Assembly: GCF_943193155.1 (NCBI RefSeq)
Contig: NZ_CALPDB010000005.1
Coordinates: forward strand, 124,001 to 188,000
Direction: 5' to 3'
Length of the DNA stretch: 64,000 bases
Origin: Veillonella intestinalis
GTDB lineage: Bacteria > Bacillota > Negativicutes > Veillonellales > Veillonellaceae
Shown here: positions 5,070 to 20,711 of the stretch, piece after piece
Layout of the letters: every line of letters starts with the position of its first letter
How positions within the stretch are numbered: the first letter of the stretch is position 1
Program-made: the position numbers and the translations under genes
Notes under the pieces: generated by a model
Told to the model about the DNA's origin: nothing
What the model saw: only the letters and a program-made list of their open reading frames with translations
The model's database searches: none

Positions 5070-5121
5070 CAGTTTCTCCTTTATAAAATGAAAGGACGGC
5101 AAATGCCGTCCCTATCTTATA

Positions 5122-5568
5122 TTATACTTGCGATTGCCAATCTGCTGGATATGTAACATATACAAATCTAGCTTTTCCTTTTACAGAAAATTGAATCGGA
5201 CTCCCCTTAGGAATTAATACTATTTCACCAGGTCCCGCTGTAATTGTTTCACCATTAATAATAATACTTAACTCTCCGGAAATAATATAATCAATTTCAT
5301 CATAATTTAAAGTCCAATCAAATGTAGTGTCTTCCATAACCATAAGGCCACAACCTAATCTAGGACTTTCATCTAATGAAAATAAATCTTTAGTATATAC
5401 CTTATCATTAGGATTACCCGTATCAAGACGGTCTGCTTCGGTTACATCAATTTGAGGTAGTTTTACAACCCCAACACCACTATTTGATATGTGTTTAGTC
5501 GCCATTAGTTTTTCAGTTACTATTTGACGAACTAAACTTTCAATCATATCGCGTGTCATATTACCCAT
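5122..5568 (-). CDS. eutQ: ethanolamine utilisation protein EutQ (cupin)
   Basis: 148 residues from ATG 5568 with AAGGAG six bases upstream; longer in-frame starts lie inside eutH. Residues about 60-145 form the EutQ cupin: LGCGLMVMEDTTFDWTL, YDEIDYIISGELSIII, GPGEIVLIPKGSPIQF. The first 20 residues (TRDMIESLVRQIVTEKL) look like an amphipathic encapsulation helix. EutQ of Salmonella is reported to have acetate kinase activity, so this product could turn acetyl-phosphate from PduL into acetate and ATP. That role is family knowledge, not visible here. Confidence 0.88.
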   Translation of the reverse strand: MGNMTRDMIESLVRQIVTEKLMATKHISNSGVGVVKLPQIDVTEADRLDTGNPNDKVYTKDLFSLDESPRLGCGLMVMEDTTFDWTLNYDEIDYIISGELSIIINGETITAGPGEIVLIPKGSPIQFSVKGKARFVYVTYPADWQSQV

Positions 5569-5578
5569 TATATACTCC

Positions 5579-6670
5579 TTATTTTTTAGCTTTAGCCACA
5601 ATATGTTTAGACATAAACATCGCTACTAAAATTGCAGTTACACCTGCAACAAGCTTACCTACAATCATTGGGAATATCATCTCTTTGGCTACACCTGCAG
5701 TAAAACCTAAGTGATCACCTAATACAAATGAAGCAGATACAGCAAATGCAACATTTAATATTTTACCACGAGTATCCATATCTTTTAGCATTTGAAACAT
5801 TGGAATATTATTGGCTAAGGTCGCCACCATACCAGCAGCTGCAACTTCATTCATCCCTAAAGCAGCCCCCATTTTTAATAAAGGCTTATTAAATACTTTA
5901 GTAATAAAAGCAACTAAACAGAACGCACCTGCTAATGTTAATGCAATCCCACCAACAATCTCAATACCTTCTGTAACTGGAGCAATCCCTTCTATTACAG
6001 TAATACCAACTAATAATTGCAAAGCACCTAAAATAAGACCTAAAACAGCAACAATAACTACACCTTGACCAAATATAGTAAAACATTTAATCATTGTTTC
6101 TGGAATCATCCATAGCCCTAAAATTACAAGTAACGCAAAAATAACAATAGGAATTAAATTAACTAAAATCATGCTTAAATTCATGCCCGCTACAAGACCA
6201 CCTGCCAAACATCCCAAGGGAATTGTAACGATACCACATAAAACACCTGTAGCCAAGTACTGATGATCTTCTTTATCAATAATTCCTAAGGCTACCGGAA
6301 TAGTAAAGACAATAGTAGGTCCCATCATAGCGCCTAAAATTGTACCTGCAAACAGCCCCGCTTCTGGGGTTAAAGCCATCTGCTGAGCTAAAGCAAATCC
6401 ACCCATATCATTCGCCAATAATGTTGTTGCAAACATAGAAGGATCAGCGCCTAACATAGCATAAACAGGTACTACAATAGGGCTTAACACTTGAGCTAAA
6501 ATAGGTGCTATCGTAATAATACCAACCATTGACATTGCTAATGCACCCATAGCCATAATGCCTTCTTCAAACTTTTCACCTAAACCAAGCTTATTGCCAA
6601 TACATTTATCTAAGCCCCCTATAATCATAAAAAGGACCATGATATACATAATAATTTCATTAATACTCAT
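5579..6670 (-). CDS. eutH: ethanolamine transporter / permease EutH
   Basis: 363 residues, almost entirely hydrophobic, with roughly ten membrane segments. It starts SINEIIMYIMVLFMIIGGLD and contains the conserved stretches LLANDMGGFALAQQMA and GPTIVFTIPVALG, and near the end SASFVLGDHLGFTAGVA; all are EutH-like. It imports ethanolamine when the external concentration or pH is low. ATG 6670 has AGGAGA upstream. It overlaps the in-frame upstream extension of eutQ but not eutQ's chosen start. Neighbours are eutN and eutQ, the usual Firmicute order. Confidence 0.93.
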   Translation of the reverse strand: MSINEIIMYIMVLFMIIGGLDKCIGNKLGLGEKFEEGIMAMGALAMSMVGIITIAPILAQVLSPIVVPVYAMLGADPSMFATTLLANDMGGFALAQQMALTPEAGLFAGTILGAMMGPTIVFTIPVALGIIDKEDHQYLATGVLCGIVTIPLGCLAGGLVAGMNLSMILVNLIPIVIFALLVILGLWMIPETMIKCFTIFGQGVVIVAVLGLILGALQLLVGITVIEGIAPVTEGIEIVGGIALTLAGAFCLVAFITKVFNKPLLKMGAALGMNEVAAAGMVATLANNIPMFQMLKDMDTRGKILNVAFAVSASFVLGDHLGFTAGVAKEMIFPMIVGKLVAGVTAILVAMFMSKHIVAKAKK

Positions 6671-6681
6671 AGTTGTATCTC

Positions 6682-6951
6682 CTAACCATCTGTATCAATT
6701 GAGTCAATAACACCCACAATCATTGCATCAATTGGCGTATTCATATTCTCGGCTGATATTCTAGCTGCTTCACCTAATGCCACCAGTACAGTATCACCTA
6801 TACCAGCACCAGCATTATCAGCTGCTACAAATGAATCTTTTTCAGTTATGCCATCAGCCTCTAAAGCCCTAACAATCATGAATTTCCAACCATTTAATTT
6901 ATCATCTTTTCGAGTAGACCACAAGCTACCAATAACCTTAGCGACTAACAC
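6682..6951 (-). CDS. eutN: microcompartment pentameric vertex protein EutN
   Basis: 89 residues, start GTG 6951 with AAGGAG seven bases upstream. It has the EutN/CcmL fold signature MLVAKVIGSLWSTRKDD at the start, GAGIGDTVLVALGEAAR in the middle and DAMIVGVIDSID at the end. Proteins of this family form pentamers that cap the twelve vertices of the shell. It is the only vertex protein gene in the locus. Confidence 0.95.
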   Translation of the reverse strand: MLVAKVIGSLWSTRKDDKLNGWKFMIVRALEADGITEKDSFVAADNAGAGIGDTVLVALGEAARISAENMNTPIDAMIVGVIDSIDTDG

Positions 6952-6962
6952 AATATCACTCC

Positions 6963-7562
6963 TTATAGTTTTAAATCATGTTCTCGCATATAATCACGAG
7001 CTAATGGGGTTAATCTCGCACCAATTGGCATTTTTTCACCATTTTGTTGTAGCTGAACTAACTTAGCTACTGTAATAAATATTGACTTACTACTTTTTAT
7101 CGGCTGTGATATCTTAGAGTCTTTCTTCTTCAGTCTACTACAAACCTCTGTGCCAAATTGAATTCCATAACTTTCACAAGCATGTACAATTTCTCGCCAC
7201 TGTTGTTTTAAAGCATATGGAAGGCGCTCTATATGAGTCGGCATTACAGGCCTTTGTTTGACAACTACAGGCTTTCCTTCTAAAATACACTGTATAATTT
7301 GCTTACTTTTTTCTGAATGAGGCATAAGGTACGCCACCTCACTCAGCTCCTCTAAAGTTAATTCATCGATGACTAAATCAGAGCTATTAGAATTTGTTGA
7401 ATTACCCTTTGAAGTAGCCCCTATCATCATATGCATAGCCTCTGAGGACGGGTTCGATTTAAATACTTGATTTAAATTAGCATCTTTTTCACTGGCTACA
7501 TATTGATTCCAAATTTTATCAGTAATAGTTTGGATGATAGATTCTAACTCACTTGTTTTCAT
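6963..7562 (-). CDS. uncharacterised Firmicute eut-operon protein with TPLARD motif
   Basis: 199 residues, ATG 7562 with GGAGGG upstream. It matches what I recall of a family confined to Firmicute-type eut operons (TIGRFAM eut_hyp); no function is known to me. The N-terminal 20 residues (TSELESIIQTITDKIWNQY) have the look of an encapsulation helix. A 50-residue serine/asparagine-rich linker follows, then a segment LEELSEVAYLMPHSEKSKQI and a C-terminal GARLTPLARDYMREHDL. The last motif also occurs near the N-terminus of EutT proteins, including the shorter form two genes upstream, so it may be a small shared binding module. A cytosolic or lumenal cargo protein is the best guess. Confidence 0.75.
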   Translation of the reverse strand: MKTSELESIIQTITDKIWNQYVASEKDANLNQVFKSNPSSEAMHMMIGATSKGNSTNSNSSDLVIDELTLEELSEVAYLMPHSEKSKQIIQCILEGKPVVVKQRPVMPTHIERLPYALKQQWREIVHACESYGIQFGTEVCSRLKKKDSKISQPIKSSKSIFITVAKLVQLQQNGEKMPIGARLTPLARDYMREHDLKL

Positions 7563-7573
7563 AAACCACCCTC

Positions 7574-8209
7574 CTATTCGATAATCTCACCAAAATCGCC
7601 ATCATGTAATCCACACGCATTAGCTTCGTCAAAATCAATATGCATATATGTGTGATACTTTGGACTAACTCGAATTACCACATCATCAAAAATAAGAGGT
7701 CGTGCTGTATTAGTTCTAACTTTTACAATTTGTCCATTCCTAACACCTAATATTTTTGCATCATCTTCTGCTACATGCACGTGTCGTTTAGCTACAATAC
7801 AACCTTCAGTTAAAGAAATATGTCGTTCCTTATTTACGATAATAATACCTGCTGAACCTTTTAAATCACCGCTTTCCCTAACAGGTGCTTTAATTCCTAA
7901 TGTTCTTGCATCAGTTAATGAAACTTCTACTTGTGATTGTTCTCTAACAGGACCCAAAATAACGACATTAGTAAACATGCCCTTTGGTCCAACTAGATTA
8001 ACTCTTTCTTGACATACATATTGTCCTGGCTGGGAAAGATCTTTAACTTTAGTTAACTGATACCCTTCACCAAATAAACGATCTACGTCATTTTGACTTA
8101 AATGTATATGTCGACCTGAACCTTCAATAATGAATTTTTTATTATTCTCTATGCTCTTTTCTTCAAGTTGCTTTAATACTTTACTAACAATATCATCTAC
8201 TAAATTCAC
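7574..8209 (-). CDS. pduL: phosphate propanoyl/acetyltransferase, PduL type
   Basis: 211 residues, start GTG 8209 with AAGGAGG seven bases upstream. It has an N-terminal encapsulation-like helix (NLVDDIVSKVLKQLEEK) and then two PduL beta-barrel halves, with zinc-ligand histidines in SGRHIHLSQ and AKRHVHVAEDD and a third site in YHTYMHIDFDEANA. PduL converts acyl-CoA and phosphate to acyl-phosphate plus CoA, recycling CoA inside the shell. It replaces the EutD/Pta-type enzyme of enteric eut operons, which is normal for Firmicute loci. Product: acetyl-phosphate from EutE's acetyl-CoA. Confidence 0.93.
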   Translation of the reverse strand: MNLVDDIVSKVLKQLEEKSIENNKKFIIEGSGRHIHLSQNDVDRLFGEGYQLTKVKDLSQPGQYVCQERVNLVGPKGMFTNVVILGPVREQSQVEVSLTDARTLGIKAPVRESGDLKGSAGIIIVNKERHISLTEGCIVAKRHVHVAEDDAKILGVRNGQIVKVRTNTARPLIFDDVVIRVSPKYHTYMHIDFDEANACGLHDGDFGEIIE

Positions 8210-8221
8210 TTAATCACCTCC

Positions 8222-8797
8222 TTAACGCTCATTATTAATAACCGCTATAATTTCTTTTGACCATGCAGTAAATGATTCTGATACTTGCGGAAATAGCTTT
8301 ATCAATTCTTCTACATATTTCATTTGCCTTAATAATTCAGCTGTAGAATATTGCCAAGTCCGCCATGGGCATGATTTAAACTGAAAAGTTTGAGGCTTAA
8401 TAGGTAATGACGTTTTTATCACTACAGTATAGCGTGACTGTTTAAACTGTTCGAGTAAATCTTGTTGTAATTTCCAATAATGCCATAAACTTTCATCAAA
8501 AAAAATATCTGGTAATAAAGGAAAATAGAATAACTCACGTAATTTAGCAATTTCATTATCGAGATTCATTAAATCACCACTTCTTATATTAGAAGTACCT
8601 GCTTGAATTTCTTTCTTAAAACTTCTTGGTGATGTTTCGCCATTGTTTATTTGCTTCACTTCGATTTGAAACTCTCGTAAATACGATTGAGCAGATGGCG
8701 TAATTATACTAGGCTCCGTCAACGTTAGTTGTTCTCCTCTATGAAGTTTTTTATGCCGTAATAATTGGCGTATATTATTTTCAGTAATTACTTTCAT
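8222..8797 (-). CDS. EutT-like protein lacking the cysteine metal motif
   Basis: 191 residues, ATG 8797 with AAGAAAGG upstream. The first 50 residues (KVITENNIRQLLRHKKL, then IITPSAQSYLREFQIEV) align by eye with the N-terminus of cobalamin adenosyltransferase EutT, and the position in the operon is that of eutT. EutT is usually about 260 residues with a CCxxC-type metal site; here that section is missing, and I count only one cysteine (in FKSCPWRTW). The C-terminal 100 residues are helical and only loosely like the adenosyltransferase domain. It could be a degenerate or repurposed EutT. A PduO-type enzyme at 20027-20596 could supply adenosylcobalamin instead. Confidence 0.65.
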   Translation of the reverse strand: MKVITENNIRQLLRHKKLHRGEQLTLTEPSIITPSAQSYLREFQIEVKQINNGETSPRSFKKEIQAGTSNIRSGDLMNLDNEIAKLRELFYFPLLPDIFFDESLWHYWKLQQDLLEQFKQSRYTVVIKTSLPIKPQTFQFKSCPWRTWQYSTAELLRQMKYVEELIKLFPQVSESFTAWSKEIIAVINNER

Positions 8798-8815
8798 AGA
8801 AAACCCTTTCTTATA

Positions 8816-8844
8816 AATAGAGAGCGCCTTACGCGCTCTCTATT
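8816..8844 (-). other. intercistronic hairpin after eutM
   Basis: Perfect 12-bp stem AATAGAGAGCGC (8816-8827) / complement (8833-8844) with a 5-base loop, between eutM and the eutT-like gene. There is no U-run of terminator quality on either side. Such hairpins after major shell genes can protect the upstream mRNA or give partial termination, which would favour high eutM dosage. Confidence 0.65.
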
Positions 8845-8883
8845 ATTACTTACGCATTGCCCGTAATTTAATCAACGGTTAAA

Positions 8884-9168
8884 TTATTCACTTTTTCCTG
8901 GCAAAATAGCATCTACTTCAGCATGTGGACGAGGAATTACATGAACAGAAAGAAGTTCCCCTACTCGTTCTGCAGCAGCTGCACCAGCATCTGTAGCAGC
9001 TTTTACAGCCCCTACATCACCACGAACCATAACTGTTACTAAACCACCACCAACTTGCTCTTTACCAATTAAAGTAACATTAGCAGCTTTTACCATTGCG
9101 TCAGCTGCTTCAATTGCGCCAACTAAACCTTTTGTTTCAATCATTCCTAATGCATTTGTGCTAGACAT
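8884..9168 (-). CDS. eutM: microcompartment hexameric shell protein EutM
   Basis: 94 residues with a single BMC domain: [41 protein letters not shown], and a C-terminal [13 protein letters not shown]. This is the canonical major hexamer-forming shell protein. ATG 9168 has AGGAGG upstream. It is preceded by an 83-base AT-rich gap in which I see no hairpin, and followed by the 12-bp hairpin at 8816-8844. Confidence 0.96.
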
Positions 9169-9251
9169 AGTGATTACCTCCTAAAGTAACTAATAATATG
9201 TTTAAAATAAAATATTTGTAATATATAAATTTTATAATTACCAATTTCTAA

Positions 9252-10724
9252 TTAGCTTAACTTAGCCATAATTTGTTCAACAATAGCGCGAATAACTACT
9301 TCTTGCGATTCACACCCTAGAGTAGCTCCTACATGAATATCTGAAGATTCTGCTTTACGTAAATCATCTAATTCTCGCACACCATATGCCACTCGTCTTA
9401 AATTAAATAAATTTTGTGGTCCTACATTATCTGAAGTAGCACTGCCACCAACAGCCCCACAGCCTAACGTAAGCGAAGGTGTAATATTAGTAGTTGCTCC
9501 AATGCCCCCTAAAGCGCCAGGCGTATTAACAAGCAATCGAGATACCGGTTTGCGTAAACCAAATTCTTTTACAATATCGGCATTTTCAGTATGAATGATT
9601 AACGTATGACCAGCGCCTTCATTTTCTAATATCCGAATAGATAAGTCACAGGCCTCTTCCCAATTATCCACTGTATAAAAAGCAATAATTGGTGCTAGTT
9701 TTTCATGAGAATATGGATATTTAGGACCTACTCCCGTTTCTAGCGCAACCAATAAACGTCTATCAGCAGGAATATCTAAACCTACCAATTTAGCAATAAC
9801 TTGGGCCGACTTACCAACGATAGCAGGATTCATAGTGCCATTAGCACGAAGAATAAAAGCTCCTAATCTAGCAGCCTCTTCTGGATCTAAAATATATGCT
9901 CCCTGAGCAACGAGTTCTTTCATAACAGCTTCTTTATTGACTGTTTCAACAATAATTGACTGCTCTGAAGCACAAATTGTACCATTATCAAATGTTTTAG
10001 AATCCATGATACGTTTTACTGCTAACTTAACATCTGCACTACGCTCAATATAAGCTGGCCCATTACCAGGTCCTACACCTAAAGCTGGTGTGCCTGACGA
10101 ATAGGCTGCTTTTACCATTGCAGAGCCACCTGTCGCTAAAATTAAATCCGTATTATCGCTCTTCATTAATTCTGCTGTACCTTCCATAGTAGGCATTGTC
10201 ATAAAAGATACAGCATCTTCTGGAGCACCTGCAGCTTTAAGTGCTTTACGAATAACTGCTACAGTCTCACCAATACATTTGATAGCAGTAGGATGCGGCG
10301 AAAATACAATACTATTAGCCGCTTTTAACGCAATAAGCGATTTAAAAATAACTGTTGATGTTGGATTGGTAGACGGTACTAGCCCCGCAATAACACCTAC
10401 AGGAACCGCGACTTCCATTACTTTATTAGCACGATCGTCATTAACGACTCCTACAGTTTTCATATCTTTCATATACTCATATACTTGACGAGAAGCAAAC
10501 GCATTTTTTAATACTTTATCTTCCCATTTACCAAATCCAGTTTCTTCATGAGCTAGCTTAGCTAAGCGAACGCGCTCATTATAAGCGGCTTCGCATACTA
10601 CCTTAGTTATCTCATCAATCTGACTTTGACTAAGAGTAGCTAACTTTTTTTGTGCCTCTTTTGCTTTTGCTAAGAGAATCCGAACTTCTTGAACGGATTG
10701 TAAATCCTTATCAACTAAGTTCAA
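9252..10724 (-). CDS. eutE: acetaldehyde dehydrogenase (acylating) EutE
   Basis: 490 residues. It starts at TTG 10724, whose bases overlap the eutK-like stop codon (TTTGA) and which has GAGGTGG upstream, so translation is probably coupled. It is a CoA-acylating aldehyde dehydrogenase: SYSSGTPALGVGPGNGPAY, catalytic cysteine in DNGTICASEQS (near residue 250), and HTLIIHTENADIV. It converts acetaldehyde, CoA and NAD+ to acetyl-CoA and NADH inside the shell. The N-terminus enters the enzyme domain almost at once, without the usual encapsulation helix. The C-terminus instead carries an amphipathic helix (SQEVVIRAIVEQIMAKLS) that could serve that purpose. Confidence 0.94.
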   Translation of the reverse strand: MNLVDKDLQSVQEVRILLAKAKEAQKKLATLSQSQIDEITKVVCEAAYNERVRLAKLAHEETGFGKWEDKVLKNAFASRQVYEYMKDMKTVGVVNDDRANKVMEVAVPVGVIAGLVPSTNPTSTVIFKSLIALKAANSIVFSPHPTAIKCIGETVAVIRKALKAAGAPEDAVSFMTMPTMEGTAELMKSDNTDLILATGGSAMVKAAYSSGTPALGVGPGNGPAYIERSADVKLAVKRIMDSKTFDNGTICASEQSIIVETVNKEAVMKELVAQGAYILDPEEAARLGAFILRANGTMNPAIVGKSAQVIAKLVGLDIPADRRLLVALETGVGPKYPYSHEKLAPIIAFYTVDNWEEACDLSIRILENEGAGHTLIIHTENADIVKEFGLRKPVSRLLVNTPGALGGIGATTNITPSLTLGCGAVGGSATSDNVGPQNLFNLRRVAYGVRELDDLRKAESSDIHVGATLGCESQEVVIRAIVEQIMAKLS

Positions 10725-11308
10725 AATATTCCACCTCGTTTCACTTCTTCTATGATTACATCAATGAGGCTTTCTTTATTTGCAAACTTAATAGCAGTTC
10801 GTTTCATACCATGCACATTCATAGCATATGCTTTTTTACGTAAGTCAACGACTTTATATTTAGCTAGTTCTTCACGTAATCCGATTTCATCAATAGTTTC
10901 TGCTTTTACAACTGCCTCATCACTAACTAAATCCTTCACGCTAAAATTTGCATCTACTGTTTTATTTAAAACAGCTGAAACCTCATCATTTGACAGTTTT
11001 TTTGCTGTACTATTAGCATCAGCTTCAGCACTTTCCTGTAACTTACCACCCATTAATTTTGCCAATGCTTTATCAGCTCTTGGAATCACATGGCTTGTAC
11101 AATAGCAATTTAATTGCTTAGCTATAACAACAGCAGCCTCCACAGCGGCTTGTACTGCGGCCACATCGCCAACAAGTAAAATTGTACGTCGACCACCACC
11201 AACGCGTTCCTCACTATTTAACGCTACATTAGCTGCCTTTAAAGCTGCATCAGCTGCACTAACAGCACCTAAGAAACCTCGTACTTCTACCATTCCTAGT
11301 GCCTTCAT
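10721..11308 (-). CDS. EutK-like shell protein: BMC domain plus SAP/Rho-N-like tail
   Basis: 195 residues; ATG 11308 chosen over the preceding in-frame TTG because AAGGAGG lies five bases before it. Residues 1-88 are a BMC domain (ALGMVEVRGFLGAVSAAD, GGGRRTILLVGDVAAVQAA, SHVIPRADKALAKL), close to EutM. A variable, acidic linker of about 60 residues follows. The last 50 residues read LREELAKYKVVDLRKKAYAM, then KESLIDVIIEE, which resembles a SAP or Rho N-terminal helix-extended-loop-helix. E. coli EutK also has a BMC domain with a nucleic-acid-binding-type C-terminal domain, but a different fold. Whether this tail binds RNA, DNA or cargo is unknown. Confidence 0.82.
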   Translation of the reverse strand: MKALGMVEVRGFLGAVSAADAALKAANVALNSEERVGGGRRTILLVGDVAAVQAAVEAAVVIAKQLNCYCTSHVIPRADKALAKLMGGKLQESAEADANSTAKKLSNDEVSAVLNKTVDANFSVKDLVSDEAVVKAETIDEIGLREELAKYKVVDLRKKAYAMNVHGMKRTAIKFANKESLIDVIIEEVKRGGIF

Positions 11309-11318
11309 CAAAACCTCC

Positions 11319-11972
11319 TTAGTAGCTTAGTGGATTATCTGCTACATTCTGAATAGCTTGTGCAAAAGCTACACAGGCTGCTTTACAAGCAGATTGGCTA
11401 CCAGTTAATAAACCGCCACCAAAGTTAGTTTCTGATGGAGGCCCATAGAATACACAAAGTCTAACATCTGCCGCTTTCAAAGCTGCATCAAGCCCCACCA
11501 GAGCTTCACACGGAGGCGCAATTAAATATGCAATTGCTTCACCTTCTGCAATATCGGCGGATTTAGATAAGAACCTACCAGATCTTGAAACAACATGTGC
11601 AAAATACGGTATAGAGCCATCATCATTAGCACTAATAAAACTTGCTTCTTCATTAATTACATGAACTGCTGTATCTAAACCACTTGTTACTTCTGCTGGA
11701 CTTGGCCCTGCTAAAATTCCGATTACTTCGCCAGCTAATTTAGTGGATGCATTGCCTGCACCACCATAAAAGCTTTTTGCATAAACAACCTCAACTTCTG
11801 CCGTTTTAGTTGCCTCGTCTAATGCTACATAAGTAACATCATCACAATCAGCTGTAATAATCCCTAATGAGCGCTGACTCTTTGATAATCCTAGTTGTGA
11901 TGCTAAGCCTGCATCAACATTAGGAATTATCTGAACGCTTAATACATTAGCACCTAGGCGTTGATTCTTCAC
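11319..11972 (-). CDS. eutL: microcompartment shell protein EutL (tandem BMC domains)
   Basis: 217 residues, start GTG 11972 with GGAGGG upstream. It is the typical EutL pattern: GANVLSVQIIPNVDAGLA at the N-terminus, AKSFYGGAGNASTKLAGE in the first domain, EALVGLDAALKAADV and ETNFGGGLLTGSQSACKAA in the second. EutL forms trimers that look like hexamers and have a gated pore, thought to pass bulky molecules such as cofactors. It lies between eutC and the eutK-like gene. Confidence 0.95.
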   Translation of the reverse strand: MKNQRLGANVLSVQIIPNVDAGLASQLGLSKSQRSLGIITADCDDVTYVALDEATKTAEVEVVYAKSFYGGAGNASTKLAGEVIGILAGPSPAEVTSGLDTAVHVINEEASFISANDDGSIPYFAHVVSRSGRFLSKSADIAEGEAIAYLIAPPCEALVGLDAALKAADVRLCVFYGPPSETNFGGGLLTGSQSACKAACVAFAQAIQNVADNPLSY

Positions 11973-11989
11973 AAACGTCCCTCCTCACT

Positions 11990-12898
11990 TTATTTCAATT
12001 CAATACCTGATTTTTTCTTTTCAAGCATATTTTTAATAATATCTGCAATATATGCACCTGCTTCTACAGCTGGAGTACCACCTTTATGAATATTAGATAC
12101 TACAGTACGTCGAGATTCTGGCATCCCCACAGTTGGACGATAAGCAATATAAGCACTCATCGATTCAGCAGTTACAAGACCTGGACGCTCGCCAACGAAT
12201 AAACAGACTACGTCAGCATCACTAATTTCACCAATAGGATCCATAGCAGGTACACGGCAATATTTAACAAATAAAACCTTATCAAAGTCTAAATTATATT
12301 TCTTAAGCCCTTGTTTCAATGAAGGGATTACATCACGAATATTAGCCTCAATTGCAGCAGAACTTAAACCATCCCCTACTACAACAACTAACTTAGCCCC
12401 TTTAGTTACATTTTGTCTAATAATTTCTGTATTAGCTTCATCAAACATACGACCATAATCAGGACGCGTAATATATTCATCCTTATTTTTGCAAATTGTT
12501 CGAACTGGTATAAAACCCATTTCTTCTACTAATTCAGGATTTACATCAGAGAATACTGCATCTTGTGCCGCTGCATGGTCTGCACGGAAACGAAGAACTG
12601 ATTGCGTTTTATATCTTGTTCCACAACGCCCTACACCTAAACGAGCTGCCGTATAGCCCTTCATTTTCAAGTATCCTTCTTTATCCTTAGGCTCCTCAAC
12701 TAATAATTGTTTCTTTAAATCCACTTCAGAAATGTCTGGCAAAATACCCGTTGGATCAATCGTACTCCCAACTTGAACCTTACTATTAGCTTGTGTACTA
12801 CTTGAATTATTTATAGCCTGAGATTCATCTAAACCTTTAGCCTTCACTAATTCCCCTAAAATAGACTCTATCATTACTTTTAATTCAGTTTCATTCAT
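11990..12898 (-). CDS. eutC: ethanolamine ammonia-lyase small subunit
   Basis: 302 residues from ATG 12898 (GAGGTG upstream); an in-frame GTG nine bases earlier would sit on the ribosome site. The first 20 residues ([19 protein letters not shown]) are a plausible encapsulation helix, followed by a serine/asparagine-rich linker. The catalytic part holds [47 protein letters not shown] and [11 protein letters not shown], all typical of EutC, which contributes to the adenosylcobalamin site of the (EutBC)6 enzyme. It follows eutB by a short gap. Confidence 0.95.
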
Positions 12899-12912
12899 TC
12901 CTATCACCTCAC

Positions 12913-14277
12913 TTATTTTAAGAATGCCGAAGCATCGCCGGCGAGTGGAGTTAATTTACCATTTGACATAAAGCCCATTTTCTCAAGCCATAATTCAAAT
13001 TCTTTAATAGGACGTAAATTAAACATATCACGAATCGTTGCCGTTTCATGGAAGCCTGTAGTTTGATAATTTAACATAATATCATCACCATGAGGGATAC
13101 CCATAATATATGTACACCCAGCACTAGCTAATAAAATTGTTAAATTTTCCATGTCATTCTGATCTGCTTTCATATGGTTTGTATAACATACGTCACAACC
13201 CATAGATATACCGGTTAGTTTCCCCATAAAATGATCTTCCAGACCTGCACGAATTACTTGTTTAGAATCATATAAATATTCTGGTCCAATAAAACCAACT
13301 ACAGTATTCACAATATATGGATCGAATTTTTTAGCAAATCCATAGCAGCGAGCCTCCATAGTTACCTGATCTGCACCATGATGAGCATCTGAGGACAATT
13401 CAGAACCTTGCCCCGTTTCAAAGTACATTACATTAGGTCCTGCTACTTGACCTTGTTCTAAAGCAAGTGCTTTAGCCTCTTCAATCGTAGCACCACTTAA
13501 ACCAAATGCCGTATTTCCTTTTTCAGATCCTGCAATCGATTGAAATACAAGACCTGTAGGTGCGCCTTGACGAATAGCTTCCATCTGAGTTGTTACATGC
13601 GCTAATACACAAGTCTGTGTTGGAATTGCCCATTCGCTACGAAATTCTTCAAATTTATTTAAAATTCGTTTTACACTTTCAACAGAATCATCTACGGGAT
13701 TTAAACCAATAACTGCATCACCTATACCGTAAGATAAACCTTCCATAACAGATGCCATAATTCCATCAATATTATCAGTTGTATGATTTGGCTGTAAACG
13801 CGCAGAAAATGTACCTGGTCTACCAATTGTAGTATTTGCTGTTTTTTCAATGCGAATTTTTTTAGCGCCTACAATTAAGTCCATATTAGACATTAGCTTA
13901 CATACTGCTGCCACCATCTCAGATGTTAAGCCACGTGAAATAAATTTAATATCATTATCTGTAGTTGTATCTGACAAAATCCATTCACGAAGCTCTTCTA
14001 CTGTCCAATTTTTAATTGAATTAAAAATTCGAGTATTTACTTGATCTACAATAATACGTGTTACTTCATCCTCTTCATAAGGCACAACAGGATTATTATA
14101 TAAGTCATTCAATGTAAGTTGTGCTAATACAGTTTTTGCCGCTACACGTTCTTCTGCTGTAGTAGCAGCAACCCCAGCTAATCGGTCTCCCGATTTTTCT
14201 TCATTGGCTTTAGCTAATACTTCTTTCACAGAAGCAAACTCGTAAGTATTGCCAAAGAGTCGAGTTTTTAAAATCAT
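12913..14277 (-). CDS. eutB: ethanolamine ammonia-lyase large subunit
   Basis: 454 residues, the usual length. It has a TIM-barrel with the substrate and cofactor loops [14 protein letters not shown] (arginine that contacts the substrate), [37 protein letters not shown] and [16 protein letters not shown]. It cleaves ethanolamine to acetaldehyde and ammonia using adenosylcobalamin radical chemistry inside the microcompartment. ATG 14277 has AAAGGAG about ten bases upstream. It stands between its reactivase eutA and small subunit eutC. Confidence 0.97.
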
Positions 14278-14292
14278 GCGTTCATCACTCCT

Positions 14293-15726
14293 TTAATTAA
14301 ATACTAATGTCTTAATAATGACCGGCAACACGTTGCCACCAGCCACAGGCGTACCTATATCTATGTAGTCTCCGTTCTCTGCTCGAATAGAGTCAATACA
14401 TACAAAAGAACTTTTTTCTGGTAATAAAGCATATATACTATTACCTAAAGCTTTAGCCATATCTTCTGCAACAATAACAATTAATGGATATCCTTGCTCA
14501 CGTAATGTAGATAATCCTTCTGTAATCCCAGCTGCATATCGTTGAATATCAGCAAACGAAGGAGATTTTAATCCCACTAACGAAAGTGCTACATTAGTAT
14601 GTTGTCCATCAGTAACAAACCACTCTAATTTATTCTGGATTTGCTTAGCCATAGATACAGAATCTAAAGCTTCATCATCTTTAGCCAGTTTTAGTACTGG
14701 TATATTTTTAATCGGTAATATTTCCTCGGTATAACTAATAGTGGAACCACTAACCTCAGCAGTATGTGAGCCAGCACCAACTACTGTAGCTCGTATAGTT
14801 TCAACTGTATCTAATACTTTACAAGTATTAAAGAATTCTGACTCTCTAATTCTTTTGCCCAATAATAAACCTATGTCGCCAAATTGAAACCAGTCTGAAA
14901 CTTGATCACTCCGAATACAATCAGCTACACCACCCGAAAAAGTTACAGCCTCTATGGATCCTGATTTCTTAAGTCCATGGTGCGTAATTAATAAATCATA
15001 AAATGGGGTTCCATCACCTAAACCAATAGACTGTTCCAGTGCCTTTACAAGCTCATCAATAACAGGCATTATATCCTCAGGCGTAACTCGTTTATTTAGG
15101 CCCAATGGCAAACCCATTTTCTCGATAATCGTCATAATTTTAGGTGCAATATAGGTTACCATCTTACTAGTAGGATCAATCTTCATAAGTCGTCCACCTA
15201 TATCAAAACAACCTGTATCAATAACATCGCCGGCCTGAAAAACAGCTAAATTACTTGTTCCTCCACCAATATCAAAATTAACAATACTACCTCTATATTG
15301 CCGTGATAAGGATTCTGTACCTGCACCTTTCCCGGCAATAATACTTTCTAAATCAGGGCCTGCGGTAGCAACTACAAAATCACCTGCATATCCACTTAAT
15401 GCCTGTAATACTTTAGCTGAATTTGACTTACGTGCAGTTTCTCCAGTAATAATAACAGCACCCATTTGAATATCTTCTTTTGCAATTCCAGCACGTTTAT
15501 ATTCTTTTGCAACAAACTCTTTAATTTGCTCTTCGTCAATTTCAGTCTGTGCTAATAGAGGTGTAAACATAATTTCACTTCTGTAAATTACTTTTTTATC
15601 AGATATTTCTATTCTAGGCACAGTAAAAGCTGACGCAAAATTCTCCACCGTCAATTCAGATAAAATTAATTGTGTAGTCGAAGTGCCTAAATCTATACCT
15701 ACTGTTAACAATGTCTCTTTATTCAT
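14293..15726 (-). CDS. eutA: ethanolamine ammonia-lyase reactivating factor EutA
   Basis: 477 residues of the ASKHA ATPase fold: LTVGIDLGTSTTQLIL at the N-terminus (phosphate 1), VNFDIGGGTSNLAVF (phosphate 2) and AVTFSGGVADCI. EutA swaps damaged cobalamin out of the lyase at the cost of ATP. ATG 15726 has AAAGGAGG upstream. It is preceded by a terminator with an ANTAR-type hairpin (15748-15830), so this gene and all downstream ones are probably antiterminated by EutV. Confidence 0.95.
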   Translation of the reverse strand: MNKETLLTVGIDLGTSTTQLILSELTVENFASAFTVPRIEISDKKVIYRSEIMFTPLLAQTEIDEEQIKEFVAKEYKRAGIAKEDIQMGAVIITGETARKSNSAKVLQALSGYAGDFVVATAGPDLESIIAGKGAGTESLSRQYRGSIVNFDIGGGTSNLAVFQAGDVIDTGCFDIGGRLMKIDPTSKMVTYIAPKIMTIIEKMGLPLGLNKRVTPEDIMPVIDELVKALEQSIGLGDGTPFYDLLITHHGLKKSGSIEAVTFSGGVADCIRSDQVSDWFQFGDIGLLLGKRIRESEFFNTCKVLDTVETIRATVVGAGSHTAEVSGSTISYTEEILPIKNIPVLKLAKDDEALDSVSMAKQIQNKLEWFVTDGQHTNVALSLVGLKSPSFADIQRYAAGITEGLSTLREQGYPLIVIVAEDMAKALGNSIYALLPEKSSFVCIDSIRAENGDYIDIGTPVAGGNVLPVIIKTLVFN

Positions 15727-15747
15727 ACATCCTCCTTTCTGAAGGAT

Positions 15748-15803
15748 ACAAAAAGGCGCTTAAGCACAAGAAAAAACTTACTTTCTTTTGCTTAAGCGCC
15801 TTT
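15748..15803 (-). terminator. regulated terminator in the eutA leader
   Basis: GGCGCTTAAGCA (15755-15766) and its exact complement (15789-15800) make a 12-bp stem, extended by A:U pairs, with a 22-base loop and UUUUU on the minus strand. It lies between the eutW stop and eutA, inside the operon, so constitutive termination would silence eutABC and the shell genes. Confidence 0.85.
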
Positions 15804-15830
15804 GCTTTTTGCTATACAACTACATCGTTG
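15794..15830 (-). promoter_or_regulatory. candidate EutV (ANTAR) binding hairpins before eutA
   Basis: On the minus strand P1 is CAAC-GATGTA-GTTG (15830-15817) and P2 is AAGC-AAAGGC-GCTT (15807-15794), 9 bases apart. ANTAR targets are paired hairpins with six-base loops having A at position 1 and G at position 4; P2 fits both, P1 has G at both. P2 uses the first half of the terminator stem, so P2 and the terminator are mutually exclusive, as the model requires. P1 lies within the last codons of eutW. Confidence 0.65.
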
Positions 15831-17254
15831 CTTTTTTGAAAACGAAAATTTACTTTCGTTCCCGATTTATTAGACTCAATATTTAATTTACCTTTTAACT
15901 TATCTTTTACATACCCATTAATTATTAATAAACCTAGACTATCTGCTTTGACAGTCTTTACATCGAAACCACAACCATCATCTGAAACTTCAATTGATAT
16001 CATAGAATCTATAGCTTTACCTATAATTTGTACCTTACCAGATTGTTCTGGTAAATAAGCATGATCAAAGATATTTTGTAATAGTTCATTTACAATTAGT
16101 GAAACTGTTACTACTTGATCTGTAGTAATATAGACATTATCATCTACTTGCAAGAAGATTTCTATATCTCTAAAATTGCCAAACATATGATGAAAATTAT
16201 GAATAACCGTCGTCAATGTTTGTTGCAATGAAGTATAACTATCTACTTGTTGTGACAACAATTCATGAGTTGATGCAATAGTCATAATTCTAGAAATACT
16301 ATCATGTAAAACTTTTTTTGTTTCATCTAATTGAGCACGTCGCTCTTGAATTTTAAGAAGTGATACAATAGATTGCAAATTATTTTTTACACGATGATGA
16401 ATCTCTTTAATTGCTACTGACTTCAGCACAATTTCTTCTTCACGTTTTTTAAACTCTGTAGTGTCTTGAATGATAACTACCAATCGCTGATTTGTTTTAA
16501 TCCAACTATATTTTATAGTGAAATAATACTGTAAAAATCTAGTTTCAGCATCAAAAAACCAATTATTAGTAGCTCGCTCAGCTCGATACTTAATATAATC
16601 AAAAGTCAAATAATCTAATGTCAAATTATCATAAAACATACCAATAATTTCATCTCTATATCCTAATTGACGATATAATTGTTTTGCTCCTTCATTGGCC
16701 GTAACTAAATATCCATCACCATCAAAAATAAGCACATTTTCTGATAATCGGTCAACAAAAAAATTATCTGCCTCTTCTTCACCACGTATAATTGTACTCA
16801 ACTTAGGCTCTGCTGTATTACCTACTGTCGGTGCACTAGCATCGGTTTCTATAATCAAAACACCTAGCGTTTTTTCTTTAAGCTTAATGGGATAAATACT
16901 TTGTGTAATCAATTTGCCTTCTTGCGAAACTGCAATTAAACCAATAGAATTTACCCCTGTTTGCATAGACCTCAAAACACCTGGTTCATTTTCTAATAAA
17001 GCATCCAAACCTACTACCTTATTAGCATACATGGATTCTTTAATTAATGGCTGTCTATGATACACCACTAACGCAGATTTACTCACTTCATTATAAATGT
17101 CAATAAAAACATCCGCATCAGGGTACAATACTGAATCCGCTAAATTATAAATTACTTTGACAAGCTCTTGAACTTCTTCAGATGTTAAATTAGAATACTC
17201 GACACATAATTCACGTAATACAGCCTCTTCTAAACTTGCTATATCATGGCTCAT
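15812..17254 (-). CDS. eutW: sensor histidine kinase EutW
   Basis: About 480 residues. I place the start at ATG 17254, one base after the eutV stop; an alternative GTG at 17263 overlaps eutV by eight bases, and neither has a clear ribosome site, which suggests coupling. Soluble, no membrane segment. It has an N-terminal sensor region, a PAS-like domain (NVLIFDGDGYLVTANEGAK, about 175-270), then the dimerisation box IKEIHHRVKNNLQSIVSLL of the HisKA_2 class and an ATPase domain (LIVNELLQNIFDHAY, DDGCGFDV, SLGLLIINGYV). EutW autophosphorylates in response to ethanolamine and passes phosphate to EutV. Confidence 0.93.
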   Translation of the reverse strand: MSHDIASLEEAVLRELCVEYSNLTSEEVQELVKVIYNLADSVLYPDADVFIDIYNEVSKSALVVYHRQPLIKESMYANKVVGLDALLENEPGVLRSMQTGVNSIGLIAVSQEGKLITQSIYPIKLKEKTLGVLIIETDASAPTVGNTAEPKLSTIIRGEEEADNFFVDRLSENVLIFDGDGYLVTANEGAKQLYRQLGYRDEIIGMFYDNLTLDYLTFDYIKYRAERATNNWFFDAETRFLQYYFTIKYSWIKTNQRLVVIIQDTTEFKKREEEIVLKSVAIKEIHHRVKNNLQSIVSLLKIQERRAQLDETKKVLHDSISRIMTIASTHELLSQQVDSYTSLQQTLTTVIHNFHHMFGNFRDIEIFLQVDDNVYITTDQVVTVSLIVNELLQNIFDHAYLPEQSGKVQIIGKAIDSMISIEVSDDGCGFDVKTVKADSLGLLIINGYVKDKLKGKLNIESNKSGTKVNFRFQKSNDVVV

Positions 17255-17255
17255 A

Positions 17256-17828
17256 TTATTCACTATCCATTATAATTAACTCTGCAATTTCGCTCATTTT
17301 AGCCCGTCTATCCATACTTAAACGTCTTAATTTTTTATATGCTTCTTCTTCTGAAATATTAAATTCTTGACTCAAAATTCCCTTTGCCCGTTCAATGATT
17401 TTTCGTTCTTCCAGACGAGTCTTAAGATCTTCGATCTCCTGCTCAAGAGTTTCTGTATGTTGCCCTTTAGCAATGGCCATTTCAATTGTTGGAATTAAGG
17501 ATTTCTCATCAATTGGCTTAATTAAATAACCTGTAGCACCAATTTTTTTAGCTTTCTCTGTATTTTCAAAATCACCATAAGCTGTTAAAAATACAATACT
17601 TTTAGCCAATTTATCCTGAGCAATTTTTTTGGCTGCCTTTAACCCATCCAACACAGGCATCTGAATATCCATTAATACTAAATCTGGTCGTACCTTTCGG
17701 CATACTTCTACCGCTTCAAAGCCATCGGCTGCTTCGCCACTTACTTCGTAGCCCGCTTCCGTCAAGATATCTTTAATATCTAACCGAGTTATTGGCTCAT
17801 CATCGACAATAACTATAGTTCCTCGCAT
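17256..17828 (-). CDS. eutV: response regulator with ANTAR RNA-binding domain EutV
   Basis: 190 residues. The N-terminal receiver domain has the acidic pair VDDEP, phospho-acceptor aspartate in LVLMDIQMPVLDG (near residue 54), threonine in VFLTAYG and lysine in LIKPID. A coiled coil (about 120-135) leads to a C-terminal ANTAR domain (IIERAKGILSQEFNISEEEA, then AYKKLRRLSMDRR). Phosphorylated EutV dimers bind twin hairpins in nascent eut mRNAs and prevent terminator formation. Suitable sites are visible before eutG and eutA. ATG 17828 has AAAGGAG upstream. Confidence 0.96.
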   Translation of the reverse strand: MRGTIVIVDDEPITRLDIKDILTEAGYEVSGEAADGFEAVEVCRKVRPDLVLMDIQMPVLDGLKAAKKIAQDKLAKSIVFLTAYGDFENTEKAKKIGATGYLIKPIDEKSLIPTIEMAIAKGQHTETLEQEIEDLKTRLEERKIIERAKGILSQEFNISEEEAYKKLRRLSMDRRAKMSEIAELIIMDSE

Positions 17829-17844
17829 ATATCTCCTTTATTTA

Positions 17845-18192
17845 CTAAGTTCTTGTAATCTCACAACCTAGTGCAAATTTTAAAATTCCTTGTAACCCAT
17901 CAACAACTGCACTCAAAGCAGTTTCAACTGAACTTACATCTCCATAAATAACAACTGAACCAGAAAATCTATCTACAAAACCAATCTTAACATCACCACT
18001 TTTTGTAGCAATATCAACAGCGATAATTGCTGCCTCAGCAGGTGTAATAGTTAAAATTCCTAATGCATTATACACATCACTTGGCAATCCTAGCTTACTA
18101 TAAATCTCTTTTGCTGGATTGGCAATAATATGCGCCAACGTTATCTGTTTCCCAGGAACATATTCCTGAATCATGCGCTGTTTTTCTTCCAT
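17845..18192 (-). CDS. eutS: microcompartment shell protein EutS
   Basis: 115 residues from ATG 18192 (AAAAGGAG five bases upstream; an in-frame GTG precedes it but overlaps the ribosome site). A circularly permuted BMC domain: [53 protein letters not shown]. EutS hexamers are bent and are thought to help curve the shell. It lies directly after eutG. Confidence 0.95.
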
Positions 18193-18217
18193 AGCCACTC
18201 CTTTTCATACCTACTAG

Positions 18218-19333
18218 TTATATGATTGCTTCTAGTAAAGCTTTAATATCACTTAAAGTAGGTACTCTCGGGTTAGCAGCCGTACAAGCATCAGCTAATG
18301 CAGCCTGAGCAATATCATCACTAGCAGCTAATACATCATTTGATTTAAACCCACATTCACTCAACGAAATAGGTACTTTTACGGTCTGCTGTAACTGCTT
18401 TATTTTTCTTACTAGTGCGGCAACTCCCATTCGCGGATTAGCCGAAGACGTCGCTCCAATAATATTTGCCAATCGAGTGTAACGTTTAGCCGCTTCACTC
18501 GTTGTTTGACTGCCATTAAAAGCCACAATATGAGGCAATAAAATCGCATTAATTCGGCCATGAGGAATATGAAAACGTCCACCAATTGCATGAGCCATAC
18601 CATGATTCAAACCTAAATTAGTTAAATTAAATGCCATCCCAGCCATGCAAGAAGCTACATGCATTTGTTCTCTAGCCTCTACATTATCTCCATGCGTATA
18701 AGCTTCTGGCAAATATTTGAAAACAAGTTGAACTGCATATTCTACTAGAGCTTTAGCCATAACATTTTCATTAGAAGATACATAGGACTCAATCAAATGA
18801 ACTAATACATCCATACCTGTATCAGCCGTGATAGCTGGAGGTACACTCAAAACTAACCGTGTATCTAAAATTGCAATATTGGGTTGAATTTCATCAGTTA
18901 CTATAGGGTGTTTTATGCCAGATTCAGCTACTGTAATAACTGAGAAATTAGTAACTTCTGAGCCAGTTCCACTTGTTGTAGGTACTGCTACAAACTCAAT
19001 ATTACGTGTATTATCAACTTGCTTACTAAAGTATAACATAGCTTTTGCAGCGTCTATAGCCGAACCGCCGCCAACAGCAATAATAACATCTGGTTTGCTC
19101 TCTAAAACACGATTCACGCCAGCTGCTACTACTTCAGTAGGTGGATCTGGTACAATGTCACTAAAAATTGTAACTTCAGTATGTTTTAAGTTTTCAATAA
19201 CTTGGTTAATCATGCCTGACTGAACCATAAAAGGGTCTGTCACAACAAAACTTTTTTTCACGGGGAGATCACGAAGTCCTTGCAACACATCTGCCCCGAC
19301 CCATAAGGTCGTAGGAAATTTTATTTTCTGCAT
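18218..19333 (-). CDS. eutG: iron-containing alcohol dehydrogenase EutG
   Basis: 371 residues from ATG 19333 with AGGAG seven bases upstream; the open frame before it crosses the leader terminator and is not coding. Nucleotide-binding GGGSAIDAAKA (about 85-95) and VPTTSGTGSEVTNFSV, and the metal-ligand segment LNHGMAHAIGGRFHIPHG are typical of group III (iron) alcohol dehydrogenases. It reduces acetaldehyde to ethanol, recycling NADH made by EutE. First gene of the operon, behind a leader with promoter, ANTAR hairpins and terminator. Confidence 0.92.
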   Translation of the reverse strand: MQKIKFPTTLWVGADVLQGLRDLPVKKSFVVTDPFMVQSGMINQVIENLKHTEVTIFSDIVPDPPTEVVAAGVNRVLESKPDVIIAVGGGSAIDAAKAMLYFSKQVDNTRNIEFVAVPTTSGTGSEVTNFSVITVAESGIKHPIVTDEIQPNIAILDTRLVLSVPPAITADTGMDVLVHLIESYVSSNENVMAKALVEYAVQLVFKYLPEAYTHGDNVEAREQMHVASCMAGMAFNLTNLGLNHGMAHAIGGRFHIPHGRINAILLPHIVAFNGSQTTSEAAKRYTRLANIIGATSSANPRMGVAALVRKIKQLQQTVKVPISLSECGFKSNDVLAASDDIAQAALADACTAANPRVPTLSDIKALLEAII

Positions 19334-19356
19334 ACATGTTCTCCTGTTTAACAAAC

Positions 19357-19401
19357 AAAAAAAGAAGCCTTCACGGAACACACCTCTTCCGTTTAAGCTT
19401 C
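19357..19401 (-). terminator. regulated terminator in the eutG leader
   Basis: Arms 19387-19401 and 19364-19378 form a 15-position stem with a short internal loop (GAAGC and GGAA ends paired), followed on the minus strand by seven U (complement of 19357-19363). It ends about 20 bases before the eutG ribosome site and overlaps the second ANTAR hairpin. Confidence 0.85.
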
Positions 19402-19428
19402 ATTGCAAACCATGTACGCCGTTGTACA
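19391..19428 (-). promoter_or_regulatory. EutV (ANTAR) binding twin hairpins before eutG
   Basis: Minus strand: P1 is TGTAC-AACGGC-GTACA (19428-19413), then a two-base linker, then P2 GTTTGC-AATGAA-GC..AAAC (19410-19391, with a two-base bulge). Both six-base loops have A at position 1 and G at position 4, the ANTAR target rule. P2 shares bases with the 5' arm of the terminator at 19357-19401, so EutV binding would block termination and switch on eutG and what follows. Confidence 0.8.
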
Positions 19429-19449
19429 CGAATAACCTTATAACCATAA

Positions 19450-19476
19450 TTTATACTTTACCAAACAAAAAGTCAA
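19450..19476 (-). promoter_or_regulatory. candidate promoter of the eutG leader
   Basis: Minus strand TTGACT (19476-19471) and TATAAA (19455-19450), with a short spacer of 15. Transcription would begin shortly before the first ANTAR hairpin, giving a compact leader. The spacing is suboptimal, so this is moderate evidence only. Confidence 0.45.
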
Positions 19477-19627
19477 TGAATTTCATCATTTTTACTTATG
19501 CCTAATACGTATACATATCCTTTTTTTCGCATATTTCTTACGCATAATGCAGATGATTTATAAAACTACTAAAACATTTAACTACTATAACCCTATTAAA
19601 TAAAGGCTTTTATTTATAATATAACAA

Positions 19628-19653
19628 AAGAGCATGAATCACATCATGCTCTT
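19628..19653 (-). terminator. terminator ending the riboswitch / ANTAR RNA
   Basis: Minus strand AAGAGCATGA (19653-19644) pairs with TCATGCTCTT (19637-19628) across a six-base loop and is followed by UUGUUAU. It separates the riboswitch RNA from the eutG promoter and leader, so the riboswitch transcript is probably a discrete small RNA. Confidence 0.8.
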
Positions 19654-19718
19654 CATTTTAATAAGGACAATACCTCACTCCATTGTGTCTAATGTTTTCA
19701 CCACTGAAAGCCTCGCAT

Positions 19719-19748
19719 CATCCTTCACTGATTGCACTACCTTGTGCA
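19719..19748 (-). promoter_or_regulatory. ANTAR-type hairpin downstream of the cobalamin riboswitch
   Basis: Minus strand P1 is TGCAC-AAGGTA-GTGCA (19748-19733): a perfect five-pair stem with the loop rule A1/G4. Immediately after it, ATC-AGTGAA-GGAT is a weaker P2 candidate whose loop also obeys A1/G4. A decoy site for EutV attached to a B12 sensor is the arrangement known from EutX of Enterococcus and Rli55 of Listeria. Confidence 0.6.
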
Positions 19749-19853
19749 AAACTAGACTAATACTGCCATTCAGTTCCTCGCATCAGACAATGAATTAGTA
19801 GCCCTTAAGGCCACAAAAACAACATCCTGTCTTACCTCGAAACAGCATGTGCG

Positions 19854-19943
19854 ATGAAAATCACGAAAGACCTGACTTAGGCAAAGCCTTCACAGTGGCG
19901 GGACCGTGTTAGATTTTCACTAACTTCCATCGATGATTTCCAT
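19854..19943 (-). promoter_or_regulatory. cobalamin riboswitch aptamer (compact form)
   Basis: Minus strand core GTGAAAATCTAACACGG, then TCCCGCCACTGTGA (the B12 box region GCCACTG) and AAGTCAGG are hallmark cobalamin-riboswitch sequences. A closing stem ATGGAAATCA (19943-19934) with TGATTTTCAT (19863-19854) pairs fully with one G-U. The aptamer is only about 90 bases, shorter than the common class-I form, so it looks like a compact class-II type. Confidence 0.88.
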
Positions 19944-19964
19944 TTCTCTATTAATCTTATAGTA

Positions 19965-19993
19965 ATAGTAGCACATATAATTTGCCAAGGCAA
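19965..19993 (-). promoter_or_regulatory. promoter of the riboswitch RNA
   Basis: Minus strand TTGCCT (19993-19988), 17-base spacer, TACTAT (19970-19965) preceded by TG, an extended -10. It lies just after the adenosyltransferase gene and would start the RNA about 15 bases before the aptamer. Confidence 0.6.
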
Positions 19994-20026
19994 GCGCCTG
20001 TCACATTAAACACCGCTAATGTATTT

Positions 20027-20596
20027 CTACTTTCCATTATGAAATACTTCAGCACTACGACTATAATATATGTCTTCACGACCTTGTTTTGCATTGATAT
20101 AACGAGCCAATGCATAAAAATAGTCAGAAAGTCGATTAACAAACATTACCAACTCTGACGACACTCTTGCGGTAGTTTGCAAACGAACTATCCTACGCTC
20201 TGCACGGCGAGCAATAGTACGAGCTACATGCATCATACTCGCTTCTGATGTGCCTCCTGGCAATATAAAACGATTGATTTCCGGAGCCGCTTCTGTATAC
20301 ACATCAATCCGTTCTTCTAGCCAACTTACTGCCCCATCTGGTAATGTAAGCGAACGATCTAAAGATTCTGGTGTGGCTAAATCAGTTCCTACATCAAACA
20401 AAAAGTGTTGTAAATATTGCAACTCGCTTCTTTCAGCAACAAAGTCTTCACTAAATTGAGAGATTGCATACCCTACCCATGAATTTAATTCATCTATTGT
20501 GCCATAACTTTCAACTCGATCTGAATCTTTTGCCACAGCTACGCCCCCCACTAAGCGAGTCATACCTTTATCTCCAGTTTTTGTGTAAATACGCAT
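20027..20596 (-). CDS. ATP:cob(I)alamin adenosyltransferase, PduO type
   Basis: 189 residues, ATG 20596 with AAAGGAGC upstream. PduO-family signatures in order: MRIYTKTGDKGMTRL (ATP loop), ESYGTIDELNSWVG, FLFDVGTDLATP, ILPGGTSEASMMHVARTIA and RRAERRIVRL. It makes adenosylcobalamin, the cofactor of ethanolamine ammonia-lyase, from cob(I)alamin and ATP. It has a strong promoter of its own and lies just upstream of the B12 riboswitch, the place taken by eutT in Enterococcus. It probably replaces the EutT function that the operon's eutT-like gene seems to have lost. Confidence 0.93.
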   Translation of the reverse strand: MRIYTKTGDKGMTRLVGGVAVAKDSDRVESYGTIDELNSWVGYAISQFSEDFVAERSELQYLQHFLFDVGTDLATPESLDRSLTLPDGAVSWLEERIDVYTEAAPEINRFILPGGTSEASMMHVARTIARRAERRIVRLQTTARVSSELVMFVNRLSDYFYALARYINAKQGREDIYYSRSAEVFHNGK

Positions 20597-20711
20597 AAAA
20601 AGCTCCTTTCTTTATATACATCTAGGTATATTTAATAAACAAAATACCCTAATATAAATTAATCATATATTAGCTTCAATGCTGTTACTTACACCCCATT
20701 GTGTTACTTTG

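Follow-up and report, generated by a model that had tools for sequence, protein, structure and literature searches.

Introduction

The closest described relatives of the RNA reported here are EutX of Enterococcus faecalis, for which a mechanism has been published (PMC5821096, PMC8934654), and Rli55 of Listeria monocytogenes, in which an AdoCbl aptamer is followed by hexaloops upstream of an alcohol dehydrogenase gene and eutVW. The short form of E. faecalis EutX stops at the end of the aptamer, the final aptamer hairpin being the terminator (PMC5821096). EutX has an 'additional single hexaloop' (PMC8934654), and the linkers of E. faecalis leaders are 5-12 nt long (PMC3369931). No report of EutX in Veillonella was found in the open-licence literature.

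An initial annotation of the DNA analysed here (a stretch of 64 kb, hereafter the window) had proposed an EutX-like sRNA in which a B12 riboswitch is joined to an ANTAR decoy. The proposal was upheld. The RNA (19957-19622, on the minus strand, as are all features of the window located below) consists of an AdoCbl aptamer, three ANNGNN hexaloop hairpins and an intrinsic terminator. It is homologous to EutX over its whole length, with the same order of parts and a three-hexaloop geometry that shows covariation, it is found by a covariance model of EutX, and it is accompanied by an EutV that shares 73% identity with that of E. faecalis (6WSH/6WW6). By sequence, it is thus an EutX/Rli55 homologue of ordinary design, a further instance of an established device in a distant genus, one outside Bacilli. 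We consider it highly probable that it is an EutX/Rli55-type sRNA with two alternative ends that acts as a B12-gated decoy of EutV.

Aptamer and 5' end of the RNA

The cmscan search placed a match to RF01482 (AdoCbl riboswitch) at 19955-19817, with a score of 103.1 bits (E 1.4e-18) against a gathering threshold of 50 bits and with the whole model covered (1-149/149). This was the sole Rfam RNA in the window. The B12 aptamer of the initial annotation was thereby confirmed, but its description as a compact form of about 90 bases was discarded on the strength of the full-length match: since the match takes in the 3' kissing-loop hairpin, the aptamer is 139 nt long and is, as judged from its sequence, of the ordinary type for RF01482.

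Upstream of the aptamer, the hexamers TTGCCT-17-TACTAT (19965-19993), which were read from the sequence and fit the consensus weakly, form a plausible promoter of the sRNA. Hexamers with the same 17-nt spacing were also read in another genome of the genus, G005 (TTGCAG-17-TATTAT), and in Enterococcus mundtii (TTGATT-17-TAAAGT), about as far from the aptamer as in the window, which is weak evidence for this assignment.

Early and 3' terminators

The last aptamer hairpin (P13, the kissing-loop hairpin; CAUGCUGUUUCGAGGUAAGACAGGAUG) is followed directly on its 3' side by the U-tract UUGUUUUUGU (19822-19813). The predicted folding energy of P13 was -9.7 kcal/mol, as compared to -10.2 kcal/mol for the nearly identical P13 of E. 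faecalis, and the U-tract of the window RNA is the better of the two. From P13 through the U-tract, the sequence is identical in G005; the similarity is lost right after the U-tract, and the DNA-similarity match of G005 to the window RNA stops exactly there. The stem, which is short and interrupted, carries a loop of 7 nt; an anti-terminator was not identified. While the initial annotation had found no intermediate terminator, P13 together with UUGUUUUUGU (19812-19852) is most likely this element, at the end of the aptamer as in E. faecalis, and we infer from the fold and the comparison that termination here would be B12-dependent through stabilisation of the hairpin. In Listeria, by contrast, P13 of Rli55 is followed by a separate canonical terminator, and the hexaloops are more distant from the aptamer.

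Between the aptamer and the 3' end, the initial annotation had noted a 10-base repeat, TGATGCGAGG, and had given it a possible switching role. Both copies exist (19785-19776 and 19720-19711); however, some 10-mer repeat was present in 6.8% of shuffles and TGATGCGAGG was not found in the nearest relative, G005, so that the repeat was rejected as a switching element.

The 3' end of the sRNA is formed by an intrinsic terminator (19622-19654) with an 11-bp stem and a T-rich tail (-15.7 kcal/mol), which has a counterpart in G005; the terminator of the initial annotation was seen at 19654-19627. That the window RNA ends in a strong 3' terminator of its own is a difference from E. faecalis EutX. It also bears on whether the aptamer, which precedes eutG in the same orientation, could be an ordinary cis-acting cobalamin riboswitch controlling the downstream eutG operon by read-through, the outcome that the initial annotation had named as contrary to its proposal. 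The terminator is followed, after ca. 150 nt, by a separate eutG promoter and ANTAR attenuator that are conserved in three species, and a congener without the aptamer (G002) yet keeps this promoter and attenuator. Furthermore, a cis riboswitch would give no reason for the presence of three conserved EutV hexaloops in the RNA. Read-through control of eutG thus appears very improbable.

Three-hexaloop module

The scan for hexaloops required a purine (A or G) at position 1, G at position 4 and a C-G closing pair. The module of the window RNA contains an upstream single hexaloop, L0 (UUGCAC-AAGGUA-GUGCAA; 19732-19749), in which A1 and G4 are present, followed by the ANTAR hairpins P1 (UUUC-AGUGGU-GAAA; 19696-19709) and P2 (CAC-AAUGGA-GUG; 19676-19687). 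P1 and P2 are separated by a linker of 8 nt, which is inside the 5-12 nt range of the E. faecalis leaders. Measured from the aptamer sequence CGCCACTGT, the three hexaloops lie at 157, 195 and 216 nt in the window, 155, 194 and 215 nt in G005, 153, 189 and 213 nt in the E. faecalis-type RNA, and 155, 189 and 213 nt in E. mundtii. The arrangement of an extra upstream hexaloop and a dual hexaloop is therefore shared with E. faecalis EutX, although in the window the distance from L0 to P1 is 2 nt longer and that from P1 to P2 is 3 nt shorter. Because these offsets are shared, the hairpin reported by the initial annotation corresponds to L0 and the dual motif to P1-P2; that is, the hairpin exists (19749-19732) but is the extra upstream one, and the canonical dual motif (19709-19676) had been missed. 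Equivalents of L0 occur at the same offset in G005, the E. faecalis-type RNA, E. mundtii and other Enterococcaceae, with compensatory changes, and an L0-type hexaloop with six Watson-Crick pairs arose in 0.5% of cases when the region was shuffled.

Two other pairings of L0 were rejected. A scan of stems of at least 4 bp had paired it with P1 as a dual motif (22-nt linker), whereas the Enterococcus alignment gives P1-P2, and a possible upstream partner with a pentaloop (ACUG-AAUGG-CAGU) is absent from G005.

In a nine-sequence alignment, the 16 pairs of the module were formed in 93% of cells, and five of them were changed on both sides; no slid version came near. The covariation score exceeded those of all 500 shuffles and of the slid controls, and G4 and the closing pairs were invariant in all three loops. 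A covariance model of the module was built from eight Enterococcaceae EutX sequences only. With this model, the window RNA was the sole match in its 2.03-Mb genome (27.3 bits, E 0.0035), and the G005 RNA was likewise the sole match in its own (29.3 bits, E 0.0015). From the end of P1-P2 to a separate terminator stem there are ca. 20 nt, and the dual hexaloop overlaps no gene-controlling terminator.

Competing outer stem

In the minimum free energy fold, an outer stem is formed by a 5' arm at 19781-19794 and a 3' arm at 19679-19694; the latter overlaps P2, and the two are mutually exclusive. The first seven pairs, the outermost of the stem, recur in G005, where there is one compensatory change. 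In free RNA, the dual motif may be masked by this stem, for which the single compensatory event is slender evidence. The fold predicted for the free RNA has both P2 and P1 engaged in other stems, and a fold in which all three hairpins were forced was ca. 13 kcal/mol weaker for the window RNA, as compared to 6 kcal/mol for that of E. faecalis. The P2-overlapping outer stem and the shorter stems of P1 and P2 (4 and 3 bp) distinguish the window RNA from E. faecalis EutX.

Since P1 and P2 are engaged in other stems, the affinity of the decoy could be lower or could depend mostly on L0. A stronger version, in which the decoy is gated twice, the post-aptamer segment hiding the dual motif and L0 being the main EutV-catching site, is a tentative idea that we regard as rather unlikely; if true, a doubly gated decoy would be a natural case for the proposed action of EutX by single hexaloops.

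The short P1 and P2 stems, the engagement of P2 in a competing stem and the absence of the RNA from the congener G002 would also be expected of a degenerate EutX relic that arrived with a horizontally acquired eut locus and has lost its decoy function. However, the aptamer is intact and conserved, the terminator is intact, and, in both species, all three loops retain A1/G4 and the C-G closing pair against a background of changes at other bases. Loss of function is thus improbable.

The eut locus, EutV and attenuator targets

The RNA lies between the genes for a PduO-type cobalamin adenosyltransferase (20027-20596; TIGR00636), 65% identical to the E. faecalis-type homologue, and an eutG-like iron alcohol dehydrogenase (18218-19333; Pfam, NCBIfam), 55-57% identical to the Enterococcus homologues in the same place. 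The order adenosyltransferase gene/RNA/eutG/eutS/eutV/eutW/eutA/eutB/eutC is that of E. mundtii and of the E. faecalis-type locus, in accordance with the first part of this order as given in the initial annotation. That annotation had, however, taken the PduO-type gene as a difference from Enterococcus, while the E. faecalis-type locus has a PduO-type adenosyltransferase too. A difference from E. faecalis is that eutP of the window is on the opposite strand.

The presumed target of the decoy is encoded by eutV (17256-17828), a response regulator gene with an ANTAR domain (Pfam PF00072 and PF03861), which is accompanied by the sensor histidine kinase gene eutW (15812-17263; Pfam). Among the residues taken from PMC8934654 for comparison, D54, K143, R168, M172 and R175 are kept in the window EutV, and K147R, N173D and R177K are conservative changes; most of the RNA-contact residues are retained. 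Between groEL and tsaD lies a further ANTAR response regulator, paired with a histidine kinase of its own (G000:C1:356381-356923; L046 3355-5491), and all searched genomes of the family contain a relative.

A strict scan for dual hexaloops in the 64-kb window yielded three minus-strand sites, one each in the adenosyltransferase leader (20700), the sRNA (19705) and the eutA leader (15826); each is intergenic or lies at a gene border. When the 20-kb eut part was shuffled, the mean number of sites was 0.017. The eutA leader motif (GCAAC-GATGTA-GTTGT and AAGC-AAAGGC-GCTT; 15794-15831) overlaps a strong terminator. In the adenosyltransferase leader (ACAC-AATGGG-GTGT and AGC-ATTGAA-GCT; 20672-20704), which seems to be an ANTAR attenuator, the terminator-like hairpin is AT-rich and weak. 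The eutG promoter (TTGACT-17-TAAATT) and ANTAR attenuator leader were located at 19363-19476 by fold and promoter scan; the leader contains UGUAC-AACGGC-GUACA, a weaker P2 (GC-AAUGAA-GC) and a terminator with T7 that is overlapped by the dual hexaloop. An ANTAR attenuator before eutG is also found in E. faecalis, and the promoter and attenuator of the window are conserved in G000, G005 and G002. From these sequence features, the leaders of the adenosyltransferase gene, eutG and eutA are the putative EutV-controlled attenuators of the genome.

Distribution and origin

In the genus (seven genomes, counting that of the window), DNA similarity revealed a homologous RNA in one other genome (G005), and an eut-type EutV was found in three (G000, G005 and G002). 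The family's other genomes encode a distinct ANTAR paralogue only. Over the whole genome of G002, there was neither an RF01482 match above the cut-off nor a match to the covariance model, and only a short gap separates the adenosyltransferase gene from the eutG promoter; G002 has probably lost EutX. This congener (L045 7745-7505) keeps eutVW, the PduO-type adenosyltransferase gene and the ANTAR leaders of eutG and eutA.

Searches for EutV returned E. mundtii (L047), Clostridium mobile (L048) and L. monocytogenes. RF01482 matches occurred in 16 of 105 genomes in the family to which E. mundtii belongs and in 15 of 118 in the genus of G319, which is probably Streptococcus. The EutV of one Enterococcaceae genome (G558) was identical at 189 of 190 residues to the solved E. 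faecalis EutV (6WSH/6WW6), and its RNA (L179) was therefore used as E. faecalis EutX; the E. faecalis-type identity of locus L192 rests on this same correspondence to 6WSH. Another Enterococcaceae match (L163) was set aside as probably an ordinary riboswitch, being without hexaloops and preceding another gene. The EutX-like RNAs of the Streptococcus-like genomes resemble the window RNA in having an RF01482 aptamer with downstream hexaloops, near an EutV gene in G319, but their hexaloops are ca. 50 nt apart and the G319 RNA is opposite in orientation to eutV. That the conserved hexaloops of these RNAs (L140, L164-L177) lie so far apart hints that decoys need not use the tight dual spacing of attenuators.

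In the EutV tree, the three congeners formed one clade with the Enterococcus group, and in a concatenated tree of five Eut proteins, they were placed next to that group, apart from Listeria and Clostridium. The eut locus (window 4596-20596), with an EutB 85-89% identical, was sister to the Enterococcus eut loci in the latter tree. The sequences suggest that the eut locus moved horizontally between the two lineages, in either direction. Nothing was found in viral contigs.

Proposed mechanism and significance

By analogy with the published EutX mechanism, transcription would start upstream of the AdoCbl aptamer and could end at either of two positions. With AdoCbl bound, the P13 kissing-loop hairpin would be stabilised and, with the U-tract, would stop transcription at ca. 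19813, yielding a short RNA without EutV sites. When AdoCbl is absent, the polymerase would continue to the terminator at 19654-19627, and L0 and the dual hexaloop P1-P2 of the long RNA would bind phosphorylated EutV, which would thus be kept off the ANTAR attenuators before the adenosyltransferase gene, eutG and eutA. With such a decoy, the ethanolamine genes would be on only in the presence of both ethanolamine (via EutW/EutV) and B12.

A three-hexaloop, B12-gated protein decoy would thus be conserved part by part far from Enterococcus, having apparently moved with the eut locus. The comparative and covariation data support the extra hexaloop of E. faecalis EutX and bear on the capture of EutV by single hexaloops, and the congener that has eutVW and the attenuators without the RNA may serve as a natural knock-out for the model.
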